A stretch of 64,000 nucleotides of DNA from Salinispira pacifica (lineage in GTDB: Bacteria; Spirochaetota; Spirochaetia; DSM-27196; Salinispiraceae). Below the pieces are notes generated by a model, which was not told where the DNA came from, did no database searches, and saw only the letters and a program-made list of their open reading frames with translations. The stretch spans positions 943,001 through 1,007,000 of the forward strand of contig NC_023035.1 of the NCBI RefSeq assembly GCF_000507245.1, in the 5' to 3' direction. The translations under genes and the position numbers were made by a program. Positions 28,819 to 43,790 of the stretch are shown here, piece after piece (position 1 is the first letter of the stretch; each line of letters opens with the position of its first letter).

Positions 28819-29978
28819 TGTTTGAAAACATTCTGCATCAGAAACGGACGGTGGGTGTTCTTTCACATGATATTCAGTCGGGAACCCTGCCCAATTCCAT
28901 ACTCATTACCGGAGGAATTCACAGCGGCAAGCTCACCGCTGCGCTGGAGCTGGTGCGCACCCTGAGCTGCAGTCAGCCTGATGCTCCCTGGAGCTGCGGC
29001 TGCTCCTCCTGCCGCCAGCACCGCCTTCTGGACAGCCCCTATCTGCTGCTCACCGGAAGCCGATATTTTGCGGATGAGATCCGGGCGGGGGCTCATATGC
29101 TCCGGAACCGGGATTCTCTTCCCCTCCGCTTTCTCTTTTACCGGAATGTGAAAAAGCTGATCCGAAGGTTCGACCCGGTACTTTGGCAGGACGACGCGTC
29201 CAAACTGAATAAGGCGGAAAAACTCATCGAGAAACTGGAGGAGCTTGCAGCCCCGGTACATCCCGAAAACGGTGCCGGGGAAGGCAGCGTGGAGGTGCCG
29301 GATCCCGACGCCCTGGAATCTCTGGTGGATGAGATAGTGAAGCTTCTCCCCGCAGACGGGGTGAATGTGGATATGATCCGCCGGGCAAACTACTGGGCCC
29401 ATACTGCGGATACCAGCAGAATCAAGGCGGTGATTATTGAAAACGCCCATGAAATGAACGACGCCGCGCGAAACGCATTTCTCAAGACCCTTGAGGAACC
29501 TCCCTCCTCGGTGTATTTCATTCTTCTCAGCGACCGCCCCGGCGCACTTATTCCTACAATCCGCAGCAGGCTGCGGCAGTATTCTCTGGCACCCAGGGGA
29601 CGGAGCGAATATCAGGATATTATTTCCCGGATATACCGGGCGGAACATCCCGGAGATTACAGCAGCCTCCAGTCCTTCTTCATTGACTGCGCCAAAGGCG
29701 GTCTTGAAGCACGGAAGCATCAGATAGAACTGATGTTCACCATTCTGGATGCCGAACCTTCCCGTGCCATCCGGGCCAGAGACGAACTGGCTGAGATTCT
29801 GGGTTCAGACCGGAGCGAACTGCGCCGCCTGGTGATTCTCTGTCTGGACGAGCTGAAGGAGGCGGGTGTGCATACATCCCGGGTGCACGCCCTGCAGAGA
29901 AGACTGGAAGAAATCCACTTTTCCAGTGAAATCTACAATATCCCGGTAGCCTCAGCCCTGGAACATGGGTATATTTGA
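28818..29978 (+). CDS. holB: DNA polymerase III delta' subunit-like protein
   Basis: Delta' is part of the clamp loader that places the beta sliding clamp on DNA. The 386-residue protein has a degenerate P-loop (TGGIHSGK), a zinc-module Cys cluster (SCGCSSCRQH, with a Cys about eight residues earlier) and the helical sensor region VIIENAHEMNDAARNAFLKTLEEPPSSVYFIL, close to the family consensus NALLKTLEEPP. A ~50-residue insert (residues about 115-170) seems specific to this lineage. The ATG shares one base with the stop before it. The C-terminal half is less conserved, as usual. Confidence 0.88.
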   Translation: MFENILHQKRTVGVLSHDIQSGTLPNSILITGGIHSGKLTAALELVRTLSCSQPDAPWSCGCSSCRQHRLLDSPYLLLTGSRYFADEIRAGAHMLRNRDSLPLRFLFYRNVKKLIRRFDPVLWQDDASKLNKAEKLIEKLEELAAPVHPENGAGEGSVEVPDPDALESLVDEIVKLLPADGVNVDMIRRANYWAHTADTSRIKAVIIENAHEMNDAARNAFLKTLEEPPSSVYFILLSDRPGALIPTIRSRLRQYSLAPRGRSEYQDIISRIYRAEHPGDYSSLQSFFIDCAKGGLEARKHQIELMFTILDAEPSRAIRARDELAEILGSDRSELRRLVILCLDELKEAGVHTSRVHALQRRLEEIHFSSEIYNIPVASALEHGYI

Positions 29979-29986
29979 CACAGATT

Positions 29987-31204
29987 ATGCGAAAATTCAT
30001 ACAGCGAGCCCTGAACAAGCTTTCCAAACTCGATAAGCAGCAGATTCATGCTCTGATTTACGACCTGGCCAGGGAAAACGAGCACATGGAAGTTGTGCTG
30101 GATTCCCTCACCGACGGAGTTCTGGTTTCCGACAAGGATAACAGACTCATACTCAGTAACAAGGCCGCCGAACGGATGATCCCGTTTCGGGAATACGATA
30201 TGTATGAGAAGATAATCTGGGACGTGGTGGCCGACCGGGATATTGCCGAATTCATTCAAACCACCATTGAGCGTGAGGAAAGCATACGGGACAGGGAATT
30301 TACCCTGGATAATCTGGGGAATACCCGCATTCTTGCCCTGAGCATCATGCCCCTGGTACGCAGAGGCAGGGTCCGTGGAAATGTTGTCCACATCGAAGAT
30401 ATCTCCGAAAAGCGCTGGAGCGAGGCAAGGCTCAGACGGGCCGAAAGTCTCGCCAGTCTCACCACCCTTGCCGCCGGGGTGGCCCACGAGATTAAAAATC
30501 CATTGGGGAGCATCGGCATCCATATTCAGCTGATGCAGCGTACCCTGGACGCCAACGAATCGGTGAAGTCCGATGATGTGCGCTCCTATCTGGATATCGT
30601 GAATGAAGAAGTTGAGCGGCTGAACCGTATTGTGATGGATTTTCTCTTTGCGGTCCGCCCCATGGATATTCATCTGGAAGATCATGATCTGAATGCTCTG
30701 CTTCATGAGATCATGGATTTCATGAAATACGAAGTGGAAGAAAGCGGTATTCAGCTGAAAGAGGATTATCAGGTGGATATCCCCCATATCCTGCTGGACG
30801 AAAAGTTTATTAAGCAGGCCATTCTGAATATCGTGAAGAACGCCATCAATGCCATGAGTGACGGGGGCAATCTCACCCTCTCCACCCGATGCCGGGGGGA
30901 TGAGGTGATCCTGCGCATTATCGATACCGGGGTGGGCATGAGTGAAGAGGTGATGGAGAAGATATTTGAGCCCTATTTCACCACCAAGGATTTCGGCAGC
31001 GGCATAGGACTTACCATAGTGTATAAAATTATGAAGGAACACCGGGGCGATATTTCGGTGATCAGTCAGGAGGGCAGGGGAACCACCTTTACTCTGAGTT
31101 TCCCCGTGCCTCCGGGCCAGCAGAACCTCATCGGCGAGACCCCGGGCGAGGCCGGGAACATCGAGAACTCCGGGAACAGAGACAGCTCCGGGGAGGATCA
31201 ATGA
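29987..31204 (+). CDS. NtrB-like soluble sensor histidine kinase with PAS domain
   Basis: The ~405-residue kinase has no membrane helix and should be cytosolic. An N-terminal segment is followed by a PAS domain (LDSLTDGVLVSDKDNRLILSN, about 33-130). HisKA follows with His167 in GVAHEIKNPLGSIG, then HATPase (NIVKNAINAMSDGG, DTGVGMSE, GSGIGLTIVYKIM). It is the partner of the NtrC-type regulator that follows, overlapping by four bases. A TTG start at 29975 inside the holB stop is also possible; I prefer ATG 29987. The domain set and context fit spirochaetal AtoS/Hk2-like kinases. Confidence 0.9.
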   Translation: MRKFIQRALNKLSKLDKQQIHALIYDLARENEHMEVVLDSLTDGVLVSDKDNRLILSNKAAERMIPFREYDMYEKIIWDVVADRDIAEFIQTTIEREESIRDREFTLDNLGNTRILALSIMPLVRRGRVRGNVVHIEDISEKRWSEARLRRAESLASLTTLAAGVAHEIKNPLGSIGIHIQLMQRTLDANESVKSDDVRSYLDIVNEEVERLNRIVMDFLFAVRPMDIHLEDHDLNALLHEIMDFMKYEVEESGIQLKEDYQVDIPHILLDEKFIKQAILNIVKNAINAMSDGGNLTLSTRCRGDEVILRIIDTGVGMSEEVMEKIFEPYFTTKDFGSGIGLTIVYKIMKEHRGDISVISQEGRGTTFTLSFPVPPGQQNLIGETPGEAGNIENSGNRDSSGEDQ

Positions 31205-32553
31205 AATTCAGAATTCTTGTTGTAGACGATGAAAAAAATATCCGGGAGGGGCTTGGAAAGAGTCTCGAACTTGACGGATATGAGACGGTACTGGCGGAAG
31301 ACGGAACCTCAGCCCTGAATATCATGGAAGAGGATGAGATTGATCTGGTGATCACCGACCTGAAGATGCCGGGAATGTCCGGGGATGAACTGCTGAGGCG
31401 GGTTGTTTCCGACTGGCCCAGTGTTTCGGTAATAATACTCACCGGCCACGGAACCATAGAAACTGCGGTCCAGTCCATGCGCAACGGAGCCTTCGATTTT
31501 CTCACCAAACCGGTGAACCTGGAACGTCTCTCCATGCTGGTGAAGCGGGCCCTTTCCTCCAGGGAGCTGGTACTCCAGCACAGAGCCCTTCAGGAGGAGC
31601 TGAATCAGCGCAGACAGAGCTCGAAAATTCTGGGCAAGAGTCCCCAGATGCGCAAGATTCTCGATCTGATCCGGCAGGTTGCCCCCACCCGGGCCTCGGT
31701 GCTGATCACCGGCGACAGCGGGGTGGGGAAGGAACTGGTTGCGGATGCCCTCCATGCCATGAGCGACAGACGGGAAAAATCTTTTGTGAAAGTCCACTGC
31801 GCCGCCCTCTCCGAATCTCTTTTGGAAAGTGAGCTGTTCGGTCACGAAAAAGGAGCCTTCACCGGAGCGGTGAACCGCAAGCGGGGGCGCTTTGAGCTGG
31901 CCCACATGGGCAGCATCTTCCTGGATGAGATTGGTGAAATCAACCAGACGGTTCAGATCAAAATTCTCCGGGTTCTTCAGGAGAAACAGTTTGAACGGGT
32001 GGGCGGCGAACAGACCGTGGACGTGGATGTGCGTCTTATTGCCGCCACCAACCGTGATCTGAAAGCTGAAATTGAAGAAGGAACCTTCCGGGAAGATCTC
32101 TATTACCGGCTGAACGTAGTGAACATTCATGTGCCGCCCCTGCGTGAAAGGAAGGAAGATATTCCGCTTCTGGTGAGTGCCTTCCTGAAAGAGTTCAGTG
32201 AAGAAAACGGTAAGAGCATAATGGGGATTGATAACAAAGCGAAGGCGGCCCTCTATAATTACGAATGGCCGGGAAATGTGAGGGAGCTTCGAAACAGCAT
32301 CGAATCGGCGGTTGTGATGAGCAGAGGGGATTTTATCACCCCCGATGACCTGCCCCCTCACATCGGAGGGGCCGGGGACGAGGATTACATCCGGCTGCGG
32401 ATGGGAGTTTCTCTTCCCGAGGCGGAGAAACAGATTATCAAGGAGACCCTGCTGGCGGAACGTGGCAACAAGAGCCGGACCGCCGAGGTTCTGGGCATAG
32501 GAAGAAAGACACTGCACAGAAAGATCAACGAGTACGGTATCGAATCGCCCTGA
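31201..32553 (+). CDS. NtrC-family sigma-54-dependent response regulator
   Basis: This activator would open sigma-54 promoters by ATP hydrolysis. Domains in order: receiver (phospho-acceptor Asp53 in ITDLKMPGMSG; Lys in LTKPV), AAA+ domain with Walker A GDSGVGKE (171-178) and the sigma-54 contact loop GAFTGA (218-223), and a C-terminal Fis-type helix-turn-helix (RGNKSRTAEVLGIGRKTLHRKINEYGI). All catalytic elements are intact. It overlaps the kinase gene by four bases (ATGA). Its likely targets in this window are the -24/-12 promoters at 39893 and 43515, but that is inference. The domain architecture matches Borrelia Rrp2 and treponemal AtoC. Confidence 0.95.
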   Translation: MKFRILVVDDEKNIREGLGKSLELDGYETVLAEDGTSALNIMEEDEIDLVITDLKMPGMSGDELLRRVVSDWPSVSVIILTGHGTIETAVQSMRNGAFDFLTKPVNLERLSMLVKRALSSRELVLQHRALQEELNQRRQSSKILGKSPQMRKILDLIRQVAPTRASVLITGDSGVGKELVADALHAMSDRREKSFVKVHCAALSESLLESELFGHEKGAFTGAVNRKRGRFELAHMGSIFLDEIGEINQTVQIKILRVLQEKQFERVGGEQTVDVDVRLIAATNRDLKAEIEEGTFREDLYYRLNVVNIHVPPLRERKEDIPLLVSAFLKEFSEENGKSIMGIDNKAKAALYNYEWPGNVRELRNSIESAVVMSRGDFITPDDLPPHIGGAGDEDYIRLRMGVSLPEAEKQIIKETLLAERGNKSRTAEVLGIGRKTLHRKINEYGIESP

Positions 32554-39237: not shown

Positions 39238-39504
39238 CTACTTAATGATTGCAATAATGTCGGAGAAGCTCACGATGAGGTGATCATCACCGTCAATTTT
39301 TACCTGGGTTCCTGCATATTTGTCATACATTACCCGGTCCCCCACCTTCACAGTGATCACATCGGTGTCATCACCGATTGCAGTTACTACCGCAGTTTGG
39401 GTCTTTTCCTGGGCAGTCTGAGGGATAAACAGACCTCCGGAAGTTTTTTCTTCGCCGGCTTCTGTCTTAAGAAGTACCCGGTCGCCTAGGGGCTGTACGT
39501 TCAT
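39238..39504 (-). CDS. groS: Co-chaperonin GroES
   Basis: GroES is the lid of the GroEL folding chamber. The 88-residue product is shorter than the usual ~95. It has the opening NVQPLGDRVLLKTEAGEEKTSGGLFIP, including the mobile loop that contacts GroEL, and ends DDHLIVSFSDIIAIIK. groEL is not next to it, as is known for some spirochaetes. TCAGGAGGACGGGT precedes the ATG. A sigma-70-type promoter lies about 50 bases upstream and no CIRCE element is visible. The neighbouring divergent gene encodes a sigma factor. Confidence 0.95.
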   Translation of the reverse strand: MNVQPLGDRVLLKTEAGEEKTSGGLFIPQTAQEKTQTAVVTAIGDDTDVITVKVGDRVMYDKYAGTQVKIDGDDHLIVSFSDIIAIIK

Positions 39505-39583: not shown

Positions 39584-39797
39584 GAAAAAGCGTACCTCAG
39601 AGGACTCTTTCAAAACAGCACTCTGAACATCCGTCCGGAGAAGGTGTGCCGGGCCGCTCCCCGCTCTATCTTACATATGAGGCGTAAATATAAGGCATTT
39701 TGCCTCCGATGACCCACAATTACCCCGCTCCCCAACCAGATGAGTCATTATGATACAACTCTTTGCAGCTGTGTATGCTCTGTGTCAATATTCCGCA

Positions 39798-39836
39798 TTG
39801 TGATATTATCAGTGGATAGCAATCACAAAACGTGAT
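39798..39836 (+). promoter_or_regulatory. Inverted repeats upstream of the -24/-12 promoter (candidate activator sites)
   Basis: TTGTGAT (39798-39804) faces ATCACAA (39822-39828), and ATCAC-N5-GTGAT spans 39822-39836. They lie about 60-95 bases upstream of the -24 element, a distance at which NtrC-type activators bind. That they are activator sites is inference. Confidence 0.35.
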
Positions 39837-39892: not shown

Positions 39893-39908
39893 TGGCACGG
39901 CAATTGCA
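39893..39908 (+). promoter_or_regulatory. Sigma-54 (-24/-12) promoter of the sigma factor gene
   Basis: TGGCAC at 39893-39898 and TTGCA at 39904-39908 are five bases apart, in the longer string TTGGCACGGCAATTGCAT. This matches the consensus TGGCACG-N4-TTGCW with GG and GC exactly 12 bases apart. Transcription should start near 39919, leaving a short leader with the AGGAGG site before ATG 39936. Confidence 0.85.
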
Positions 39909-39935: not shown

Positions 39936-40811
39936 ATGAGCCAGGCAACAGAAAAGCGTATTAACGGTAACACCAAAAGTAATGATGAAAATATTCTTAC
40001 CATGTATCTGAAAGAAATAAATAAAATCCCCCTTCTCTCCCGTGAAGAAGAAGTGGACCTTGCCACCCGTGCCCGGGACGGTGAACAGGCGGCCAAGGAC
40101 AAACTTGTCCAGGCAAACCTTCGCTTTGTTGTGAATGTTGCGAAAAAGTATCAGAATCAGGGCCTTCCCCTCACTGACCTCATCAGTGAAGGAAATATCG
40201 GCCTTCTGAATGCCATTGAGCGTTTCGATGTGGATAAAGGCTTTCATTTTATCTCCTATGCAGTATGGTGGATTCGTCAGGCCATCCTCAAGGCGATCTG
40301 CGAAAAGAGCCGGATGATCCGTCTGCCGCTGAACAGAGCCAATGAACTTGTACAAATAGAGAAAGCCCGAAAAGGCATTTCCGGACGGGTGGGTGAAACC
40401 GAAGAGATTCGGGAGATCGCCCGGACACTGAACATGGACGAAGAACATGTAACCGACCTGGTGAATATCAGCCGGGAACATGTTTCCCTGGAAACACCGG
40501 TATACAAGGAAAAAGACAGCTCCATGCTCAGCGACTTTGTTGAAGACAATGTGAATGCACTGCCTGAGGATCTGGTACTTCATGATTCACTGAAAAATGA
40601 TATCAACAACATCCTCACCACCCTTACCGAGAAGGAAGCTGAAATTATTCAATTCCGTTTCGGATTGAACGGCTATGCTCCAATGAGTCTCAAGGAGATT
40701 GGTGACCGTTACAACCTTACCAAGGAACGGATCAGACAGATTGAGAAAAAGGCCATAAAGCGGCTTCAGCATCCCACCAGAAGCCGATATCTCTCCTCCT
40801 ATGTTGCCTGA
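39936..40811 (+). CDS. Group-2 sigma-70 family RNA polymerase sigma factor (RpoS-like)
   Basis: The 291-residue protein has regions 1.2 to 4.2 but lacks region 1.1. Region 2 is ANLRFVVNVAKKYQNQGLPLTDLISEGNIGLLNAIERFDVDKGF with the -10 recognition helix FISYAVWWIRQAIL. Region 4.2 is MSLKEIGDRYNLTKERIRQIEKKAIKRL. It should recognise promoters like those of RpoD. The size and lack of 1.1 fit RpoS-type group-2 factors. AGGAGG at six bases spacing fixes ATG 39936; the longer frame from 39846 is not supported. A sigma-54 promoter lies directly upstream, as for Borrelia rpoS. A terminator follows. Confidence 0.93.
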   Translation: MSQATEKRINGNTKSNDENILTMYLKEINKIPLLSREEEVDLATRARDGEQAAKDKLVQANLRFVVNVAKKYQNQGLPLTDLISEGNIGLLNAIERFDVDKGFHFISYAVWWIRQAILKAICEKSRMIRLPLNRANELVQIEKARKGISGRVGETEEIREIARTLNMDEEHVTDLVNISREHVSLETPVYKEKDSSMLSDFVEDNVNALPEDLVLHDSLKNDINNILTTLTEKEAEIIQFRFGLNGYAPMSLKEIGDRYNLTKERIRQIEKKAIKRLQHPTRSRYLSSYVA

Positions 40812-40908: not shown

Positions 40909-42105
40909 ATGAGCGATCCATATTTTCGGGTGCTGATCAATCCCCATCGGTATCCCCGTTACATCAAACGCCTGAAGAAAAAGATCAGGAAGGTACCCGG
41001 CGGGCGGATTCAGGAAGCCGGAAGCAAGGAAGATTTTTCCCGGGGCATCCGAGACTTCCTGTACAGTGATGAGAAGTACCTTCTGGTTTGGGGGGGCGAC
41101 GGTACCGCCCATCTGGCCATCAACAGCTGGATGAAGCATCTTGAGGAAAACGATCTACCCGGTGATTCCGGCGGAGGTAAACCCGGCGGCCCGAACAGCA
41201 GCGGTGAGACCGGCAAAGGCGACACCGGCCGAAGTAATTCCGGCGGCGGCGCTGCCCTGCCCATGGATCAGAAAGCCATAGGTTTTCTCCGGGGCGGCAG
41301 CGGAAACGGCATACAGGACTCCTATGAAGTTCCCTTCCTTCTCTCCAGTCAGATATCAACCTACCTGCAAAGCATGCAGCAGGGCTACACCCAGCAGGTG
41401 GATCTGCTCACAGTAGGCAGCGGCCGGGAGCTGCGGTATGCCCAGTTGGCGGGCACCGGTTTCGATGCGGAACTGCTGAGAAGACGGGAAGCGGCTCTTG
41501 CACGGCGGGGCGGAAGGCCCAGCGGTCTCGCCCAGTATCTTAAGGGAGGTCTTTCCCTTTTCCGGGAAGATTTTCTTGCCCGGCGAAACAGCTTCCATCT
41601 GATCATGGAAAATGGAAAGTACGCCCTGCGCAGCACCCGGGCCAATGCCGAGCTGGGCTTCACCCGGCTTGAGTACGAACAGACCCCTCTGATGATCGAA
41701 GCGGGAACCCGCCCGTTTTACGGCCGGATGTTCAAGGTCTGTCCCGATGTGGTGTGCAATGACGGCAGGATGGACGTGTATCAATTCATGTTTGAAAACA
41801 AATGGCAGATCCTCTCCAACCTTCTGCCTCTCTGGAACGGGTGGCATAACCGGATCAACCGGAACCAGGCGGAGAAGGGACGCCCTCTCATCGAACGCTA
41901 TGAAGTGGAACGGCTGAAAATAATATCTGCTACCCCGTTTTTGTATCATATTGACGGTGAATTGGAAGAATGCAGGGAACAAAACGGAGAATACTCCCTT
42001 AGTCTGGGAATTGCTCCCGGTGCAATCCGTTTTCTGGTTCCCGGGAGCTTCCACAGAAAATTTCACCCCGAGAACCTGTATCATCAGGGAAAGGTATGGA
42101 AGTGA
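40909..42105 (+). CDS. Diacylglycerol/lipid kinase family protein
   Basis: The ~398-residue protein belongs to the DAGK catalytic (LCB5/YegS) family, which phosphorylates diacylglycerol or other lipids with ATP. The nucleotide loop is LLVWGGDGTAHLAIN and a second loop is GFLRGGSGNGIQDS, a variant of the usual GGTxN motif. The C-terminal half has YHIDGELEECREQNGEYSLSL. A Gly/Ser-rich insert (about residues 83-116) lies between the two loops, probably a flexible surface loop. The frame is open from 40834, across the terminator, but ATG 40909 is the reasonable start. It converges with the small heat-shock operon. Confidence 0.82.
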   Translation: MSDPYFRVLINPHRYPRYIKRLKKKIRKVPGGRIQEAGSKEDFSRGIRDFLYSDEKYLLVWGGDGTAHLAINSWMKHLEENDLPGDSGGGKPGGPNSSGETGKGDTGRSNSGGGAALPMDQKAIGFLRGGSGNGIQDSYEVPFLLSSQISTYLQSMQQGYTQQVDLLTVGSGRELRYAQLAGTGFDAELLRRREAALARRGGRPSGLAQYLKGGLSLFREDFLARRNSFHLIMENGKYALRSTRANAELGFTRLEYEQTPLMIEAGTRPFYGRMFKVCPDVVCNDGRMDVYQFMFENKWQILSNLLPLWNGWHNRINRNQAEKGRPLIERYEVERLKIISATPFLYHIDGELEECREQNGEYSLSLGIAPGAIRFLVPGSFHRKFHPENLYHQGKVWK

Positions 42106-43022: not shown

Positions 43023-43463
43023 TCATGAAATGCTGATATGATGCGGCCGGGCCTCTTCGGTCTTCGGCACGTTGATATTCAGCACTCCGTCCCGCAGCTC
43101 AGCATTGATTTTCGATTCGTCTGCGCCCCGCACGGTGAAACTCCGGGTAAAACTCCCCTGACTCCGTTCAAAGCGGGAGTTCTTGCCCAGACCCTTCTTT
43201 TTTTCCTGCTTCCGTTCCCAGGAAACGGTGAGAACATCGTTTCTCAGCTCAATTTCAACCTCTTTTTTCTTTACCCCCGGAAGTTCCAGTTCAATCCGGT
43301 AAGAATCCTCCCGGTCCTGGAAGTCGCATTTGGCATTGAGCATCTTTCGCATGTTCCCTGAGATGTCGCTGGAAAGATGTCCCGGAAGATTGTTCCAGTC
43401 CGCATCAAGCATGGAAGGAACATCGTTCCAGAAGTCTCTGAACAGGCTCAGTTCACGACTCAT
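43023..43463 (-). CDS. Hsp20 family small heat-shock protein (first of three)
   Basis: The 146-residue protein has the alpha-crystallin domain (DSYRIELELPGVKKKEVEIELRNDVLTVSWERK, then QGSFTRSFTVRGADESKINAELRDGVLNINVPK) and the C-terminal HHISIS, which holds an I-x-I-like anchor. It is the promoter-proximal gene of the operon. Its ATG follows GAGGAGGTACATT. A sigma-54 promoter lies about 50 bases upstream, so induction would depend on an NtrC-type activator and not on a heat-shock sigma. Confidence 0.92.
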   Translation of the reverse strand: MSRELSLFRDFWNDVPSMLDADWNNLPGHLSSDISGNMRKMLNAKCDFQDREDSYRIELELPGVKKKEVEIELRNDVLTVSWERKQEKKKGLGKNSRFERSQGSFTRSFTVRGADESKINAELRDGVLNINVPKTEEARPHHISIS

Positions 43464-43514
43464 AATGTACCTCCTCTCATATGGTTTCCGGTATCAACCG
43501 GTTATTAATGATAT

Positions 43515-43530
43515 TGCAAAATATGTGCCA
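43515..43530 (-). promoter_or_regulatory. Sigma-54 (-24/-12) promoter of the Hsp20 operon
   Basis: On the minus strand TGGCAC (43530-43525) and TTGCA (43519-43515) are separated by five bases (ATATT), within TTGGCACATATTTTGCAAT. GG and GC are 12 bases apart as the consensus requires. Transcription would start near 43504, about 40 bases before the first Hsp20 ATG. The leader holds a small CCGGT/ACCGG hairpin. Confidence 0.82.
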
Positions 43531-43790
43531 ATTTTTATCCTGCATGCACAGGTTTATAAAATACTATATTGTATTAAGATACGTAGATTCATCAGGGCGG
43601 TTCGCTCTGACGGAACGGGGTGGAGCGGGGGGTGATCCGGGCAAAAATGCTACATCCTGAAATTTCATCCCGATCCCTTCTGGGTAAAAATGACACAGAA
43701 ATCCGGTGGCGGATCTGACGAATGGAGCATCTTTTCAGCCTGTCAGCGGCTTCCCTGTGGGGGAGCAGATAGATCGGTGGAAGTTTTCTT

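Follow-up and report, generated by a model that had tools for sequence, protein, structure and literature searches.

What controls the three tandem small heat-shock genes of Salinispira pacifica, and does the sigma-54-type element that faces them belong to a larger circuit? The question arose from a first-pass annotation of a 64,000-nucleotide stretch of DNA (hereafter the window; bases 943001-1007000 within a single contig of 3,782,798 bases), which had placed a minus-strand TGGCAC-N5-TTGCA element about 50 bases before the first Hsp20 gene. The placement was accurate: the element runs from 43530 to 43515, with the -24 GG at 43529-43528 and the -12 GC at 43517-43516 separated by the canonical 10-nt gap, and 52 nt lie between the -12 C and the ATG at 43463, so that transcription is predicted to start at about 43504. 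All three tandem open reading frames encode Hsp20/alpha-crystallin proteins (PF00011). The second exact element lies 28 nt from the ATG (39936) of a gene for a sigma-70-family factor. Both elements are correctly oriented towards their genes, as had been claimed, and both fit GG-N10-GC inside TGGCAY-N5-TTGCW, the pattern taken as the mark of sigma-54 promoters. Between the sigma factor gene and the hsp20 operon, positions 40909-42102 encode a diverged lipid-kinase-like protein (DAGK/YegS, under the Pfam cut-offs) with a Gly/Ser-rich insert. The coordinates of all features are collected in the table.

Features of the window that are discussed in the text, with positions counted from its first base
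Feature	Position	Strand	Remarks
PAS-HisKA-HATPase histidine kinase, Borrelia Hk2 orthologue	29987..31204	+	36% identity, same gene order (G148/L502)
REC-AAA+(GAFTGA)-Fis HTH bEBP, Borrelia Rrp2 orthologue, proposed activator	31201..32553	+	54% identity to the Borrelia protein
UAS 1 of sigma factor gene	39739..39759	+	GATGAGTCATTATGATACAAC; centre 144 nt upstream of -24; score 21.1
UAS 2 of sigma factor gene	39779..39799	+	TCTGTGTCAATATTCCGCATT; centre 104 nt upstream of -24; score 16.7
-24/-12 sigma-54 promoter of sigma factor gene	39893..39908	+	TGGCACGGCAATTGCA; exact consensus
Sigma-70-family sigma factor, regions 1.2-4, 291 aa	39936..40811	+	class-wide clade distinct from Borrelia RpoS
hsp20 gene 3, 128 aa	42199..42585	-	PF00011, E 2e-20
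hsp20 gene 2, 134 aa	42597..43001	-	PF00011, E 4e-23
hsp20 gene 1, 146 aa	43023..43463	-	PF00011, E 4.5e-22
Predicted hsp20 5' leader with small hairpin	43464..43504	-	CCGGTTGATACCGG; fold z -1.4
-24/-12 sigma-54 promoter of hsp20 operon	43515..43530	-	TGGCACATATTTTGCA; exact consensus
UAS of hsp20	43679..43699	-	TCTGTGTCATTTTTACCCAGA; centre 159 nt upstream of -24; best site in the window

The window holds two exact copies of TGGCAC-N5-TTGCA, against a mean of 0.04 in shuffled sequence and with two copies in none of 100 shuffles, which agrees with the earlier contention that such a pair is unlikely to be chance. The genome-wide scan for TGGCAC-N5-TTGC that had been proposed alongside it returned nine exact matches, compared with two for the reversed pattern, and most of the nine face genes for two sigma factors, hsp20, a peroxiredoxin and a receiver-domain protein whose neighbour is an ammonium transporter. 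One rpoN and about eight bEBPs with full-domain matches are encoded in the genome. As for the usual forms of heat-shock control, CIRCE (TTAGCACTC-N9-GAGTGCTAA) had no match in the window with up to three mismatches allowed, and gained no support as a control of hsp20. An Rfam search of known families around the hsp20 genes found no ROSE or FourU thermometer, its sole hit being below threshold and attributable to chance; a thermometer of a known family thus gained no support, nor did the fold of the predicted leader, in which the AGGAGG ribosome site lies outside the hairpin, speak for one, although a thermometer of some other kind may exist. The first-pass statement that neither CIRCE/HrcA nor ROSE-type control is visible thus held up.

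A lone 16-mer proves nothing by itself, and the element could be a chance or decayed, functionless site while Hsp20 is transcribed from an unrecognised sigma-70 promoter. To be set against this is the conservation of the site. The genome groups with Spirochaetia, and its named relatives are Spirochaetales, Treponema, Marispirochaeta and Breznakiella. About 60 relatives were searched with the first Hsp20 and the sigma factor, and the 250 nt before each start codon, picked by script, were scored with a weight matrix that was self-written from the known consensus and gives approximate numbers (cut-off of at least 14 bits). Although counts among relatives are not independent draws, a -24/-12 site was found before 51 of 51 sigma factor orthologues (0.05 in shuffles, one on the reverse strand) and before 65 of the 67 Hsp20 genes (0.05 in shuffles, none on the reverse strand). 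The scan of the collection used the sigma factor alignment, the Hsp20 alignment being too diverse. Among the named sigma factor loci, many of whose assemblies overlap the first set, 75 of 79 had the site, and the background in these loci outside the sigma promoters was 0.0027 sites per 250 nt. An apparent loss of the promoter before the sigma factor gene in T. lecithinolyticum, one of the named loci counted as lacking it, and in G156 turned out to reflect a wrong choice of start codon, and the sites are present together with the upstream palindrome described below.

When sampling was widened to the phylum, the site was found before 37 of another 43 Hsp20 genes from the class; of those without it, four are Borrelia-like (f26), one belongs to a truncated contig and one is a second copy. 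Of 83 Hsp20 genes from outside the class, 22 had it, namely all those sampled from families f39 and f51 and the leading genes of f35, presumably Brachyspira, while f43 (0/13), f49 (0/9), f33 (0/4) and other families had none. With whole families at zero (0/13, 0/9), the promoter scan was not permissive, and these families serve as internal negative controls. Since the site is kept in dozens of genera within diverged surroundings, at a fixed orientation and distance and together with an enhancer, and since no sigma-70-type match was found on the Hsp20 strand between 42100 and 44100, a functionless site is barely credible. In the Borrelia-like group, a degenerate -24/-12 (TTGGTAT or TTGGTAC, N5, TTGCA) precedes hsp20 at four loci (L300, L301, L342 and L343), and hsp20 is possibly a second sigma-54 target in several of these genomes; in two other Borrelia-like upstream regions (L302, L341) the site is broken or absent.

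The region from -24 to 200 nt upstream was searched de novo by counting spaced word pairs with no prior motif. Inverted GTCA/TGAC words emerged from both the sigma factor and the Hsp20 promoter sets, and refinement by expectation-maximisation gave TGtGTCA-tWa-TGACaCA, a 17-bp palindrome of the form TGtGTCA-N3-TGACaCA (hereafter UAS). It was present in 50 of 50 sigma factor promoters and 59 of 65 Hsp20 promoters, with centres 60-200 nt upstream, leaving six Hsp20 promoters without a scored UAS within 200 nt. Cross-training recovered the same numbers: a model trained on Hsp20 promoters found the palindrome in all 50 sigma factor promoters (1.2 in shuffled sequence), and a model trained on sigma factor promoters found it in 59 of the 65 Hsp20 promoters (shuffled 1.05). 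Copies were usually paired and the commonest spacing between neighbours was exactly 40 bp (51 of 96 cases), which is about four helical turns and would place paired copies on one face of the DNA; the two copies before the sigma factor gene of the window are spaced in this way. In the named loci, the density of the palindrome was 9.0 per kb in promoter regions and 0.118 elsewhere. In the wider Hsp20 set, where the matches from f35 and f26 are AT-rich and weak, it occurred in 57 of 59 sigma-54-positive promoters and in one of 38 out-of-class sigma-54-negative ones.

Only four sites in the window scored 12 or more (shuffle mean 0.6): one before hsp20, two before the sigma factor gene and one where the kinase gene begins. 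The distances of the first three from their -24 elements fit the range of about 80-200 nt that is used as a criterion for sigma-54 activator sites. The fourth (29964-29984) raised the idea that the kinase gene regulates itself through a UAS; this was discarded, as the site is absent in 29 relatives and is probably a chance or species-specific palindrome. Taken alone, the pattern was not enriched genome-wide (35 hits, compared with 41 for the reversed control), and it is thus informative only near -24/-12 sites. There, the palindrome is a candidate enhancer common to the sigma factor and hsp20 genes.

Which protein might bind it is suggested by the genes upstream. The kinase, in which no membrane segment was apparent by eye, and the adjacent bEBP resemble the Hk2-Rrp2 pair of Borrelia, and the order murG, cvpA-like, holB, kinase, bEBP is alike in the window and in the Borrelia-like G148 (L502), where rpoS lies a few kb from the kinase and bEBP genes; similarity and gene order together identify the window pair as Hk2-Rrp2. 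Most of the same order (murG, holB, a kinase ORF, bEBP) is found in the 1.14-Mb treponeme G110 (L503), whose T. pallidum-like bEBP is 60% identical to that of the window; identities across the class are 55-76%. The treponeme kinase gene (L503 12503-13441) appears shortened in comparison with its relatives, encoding 312 aa and not adjoining the bEBP gene, and is possibly decayed or frameshifted. In the window, 7.4 kb separate the Rrp2 orthologue from the sigma factor gene downstream of it, and in 31 of the 32 genomes that have both on one contig the orthologue is likewise upstream and on the same strand, at a distance of 3.4-12.1 kb. The recognition-helix stretch of the orthologue, GIGRKTLHRK, is invariant among the relatives shown, as would suit an enhancer that varies so little. 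The Rrp2 orthologue is therefore the likely activator of the hsp20 and sigma factor promoters, and would act by binding the enhancer. Against this stands the report that Borrelia Rrp2 did not bind the rpoS promoter and acts there independently of an enhancer (PMC1976401), so that the DNA-binding role of the family is putative.

Another bEBP could bind the shared enhancer and serve these sigma-54 promoters, and the likeliest such protein is the REC-AAA+-HTH protein linked to rpoN (G000 3556900-3558246). It is widespread in the class at 43-48% identity, and in several genomes this second class-wide bEBP is encoded no more than about 6 kb from rpoN. It is, however, without the linkage to the target genes that marks the Rrp2 orthologue, and in G056 the only bEBP match at E 1e-60 is the Rrp2 orthologue, yet the UAS is kept before both genes. 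This alternative was accordingly judged unlikely, and the Rrp2 orthologue was retained as the candidate. The conserved promoters, the shared enhancer palindrome and the linked Rrp2 orthologue all speak for the earlier suggestion that a single sigma-54 activator may govern both the sigma factor and the holdases.

The signal to which such a circuit responds may be approached through its genes. Among the loci examined in this genome, the combination of -24/-12 and UAS also stands before a second hsp20 gene, and sigma-54-like sites with the same UAS lie upstream of an HtpX-like M48 protease (G000:C1:2272964(-), L441) and of a TolC-like outer-membrane protein (1137152(+), L047). In G205, presumably T. 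denticola ATCC 35405, hsp20 has a -24/-12 site and a UAS, and the sigma factor orthologue (62%), which is divergent from groES, keeps the UAS with a degenerate -24 (TTAGCAT). The window has the same arrangement, with groES at 39238-39504(-) divergent from the sigma factor gene at 39936-40811(+) and no CIRCE. Arrays of T. denticola placed TDE0937 (sigma-70-family) and TDE1029 (Hsp20) together in a core stress set, with respective inductions of 2.8- and 9.5-fold by heat, 21.8- and 8.5-fold by oxygen, and 14.0- and 6.7-fold by osmotic downshift; TDE0937 lies near groES (TDE0934) and was flagged as a possible stress regulator (PMC2965109). This co-induction, together with the UAS-linked genes, led me to take the circuit for a response to protein stress, and the first-pass term "stress regulon" gains substance from the orthologous genes of T. 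denticola.

The promoters might instead be real sigma-54 promoters for nutrient or growth-phase control, in which case the heat-shock name of the genes would mislead. Elsewhere in the genome, sigma-54 sites do stand before glutamate synthase and before an ammonium-transporter operon, and EbpA-RpoN of Leptospira promotes survival in water and the use of nitrogen (PMC12655853), but in the loci that were examined the UAS recurs at the HtpX-like protease and the second hsp20 gene and not at the nitrogen genes, and the T. denticola orthologues respond to heat, oxygen and osmotic shift. A nutritional role for these promoters is on this evidence distinctly improbable. The glutamate synthase site (1518821(+), L027) and that before a receiver-domain gene preceding the ammonium transporter (1668351(+), L008), both without the stress UAS, probably form a separate nitrogen regulon. 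The gene of a 1-Cys-type peroxiredoxin (G000:C1:1105815(-), L004/L013) also has a perfect sigma-54 site; a GAF-domain bEBP is encoded divergently from it and may be its activator.

It is thus likely that the hsp20 element is a working sigma-54 promoter and that the Hk2-Rrp2 pair, acting through the UAS, drives hsp20 and the sigma factor gene under stress. Proteotoxic stress would activate the kinase/response regulator pair (29987-32553), and the phosphorylated bEBP would bind TGTGTCA-N3-TGACACA 100-160 nt upstream of the promoters; DNA looping would then bring it into contact with sigma-54 RNA polymerase at -24/-12, which would be opened. At hsp20, the result would be a burst of Hsp20 holdases, while the same activator would drive the sigma factor, which in turn may switch on further genes. 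From the promoter sites and their conservation, the shared enhancer and the orthology and linkage of the activator, all of them features of sequence, I infer the dependence on sigma-54, the pairing of activator and enhancer, the signal and the existence of targets of the sigma factor.

Small heat-shock genes under sigma-54 have precedents. Escherichia coli ibpB has both a sigma-32 and a sigma-54 promoter, whereas the window is without CIRCE or a known thermometer and the sigma-54 site is here nearly universal in the class. A 2025 survey reports, for Bacteroidota and Planctomycetota, an enrichment of COG0071 small heat-shock proteins among genes with predicted sigma-54 control; where its main text mentions Spirochaetia, other gene groups are concerned, and neither an activator nor an enhancer of chaperone genes was noticed in it (PMC12316311). 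Among spirochaetes, Leptospira also combines sigma-54 with bEBPs (EbpA/EbpB-RpoN), but the reported targets there are amtB and lipoproteins (PMC12655853). Neither of two Hsp20 genes from the sampled f31 genomes, which are possibly Leptospira-related, had the site. Among open papers, none was found that deals with sigma-54 acting on Hsp20 genes of spirochaetes or with the palindromic enhancer.

The closest known system is the Rrp2-RpoN-RpoS cascade of Borrelia burgdorferi (PMC3037356, PMC1976401, PMC11109971), with which the window shares an orthologous kinase and bEBP, the order murG-cvpA-holB-hk-bEBP, and, a few kb away, a gene for a sigma-70-family factor that in the window is putatively driven by sigma-54. 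The target sigma factors differ. In a phylogenetic tree, the window factor falls in a well supported clade separate from Borrelia RpoS, and its being RpoS was rejected; another sigma factor encoded in the genome (G000:C1:1503439; L006, L432) matches RpoS better and groups near it (support 94/89, on a long Borrelia branch). This second factor is 40% identical to Borrelia RpoS, has a perfect sigma-54 site and follows flgG/flgJ-like genes, as Borrelia rpoS does. No UAS was found before its gene or before Borrelia rpoS (0/5), the latter in agreement with the enhancer-independent, non-binding action reported for Rrp2 (PMC1976401). The hsp20 genes would be targets here, and a strong paired enhancer is present, in contrast to Borrelia, where rpoS lacks an enhancer of this type; in B. 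burgdorferi, rpoS has been termed the sole known sigma-54-type promoter (PMC11109971).

The promoter and enhancer sites, kept across nearly the whole class, suggest an old and largely unrecognised stress circuit. It also offers a possible control mechanism for a stress sigma factor of spirochaetes (TDE0937 of T. denticola, PMC2965109). In the Lyme spirochaete, Rrp2 occupies a central regulatory position and has kept its DNA-binding domain, yet no site for it was found at its best-known target (PMC1976401); a conserved enhancer beside conserved targets provides a candidate DNA site for Rrp2 and points to protein quality control as its likely original task. An ancestral protein-stress regulon of Spirochaetia, in which Hk2-Rrp2 orthologues, the 17-bp enhancer and sigma-54 would drive Hsp20 and a group-2 sigma factor, is a reasonably probable origin for both systems, and if this is true, the virulence cascade of Borrelia is a derived remnant that has lost the rpoS enhancer and works through another sigma factor.
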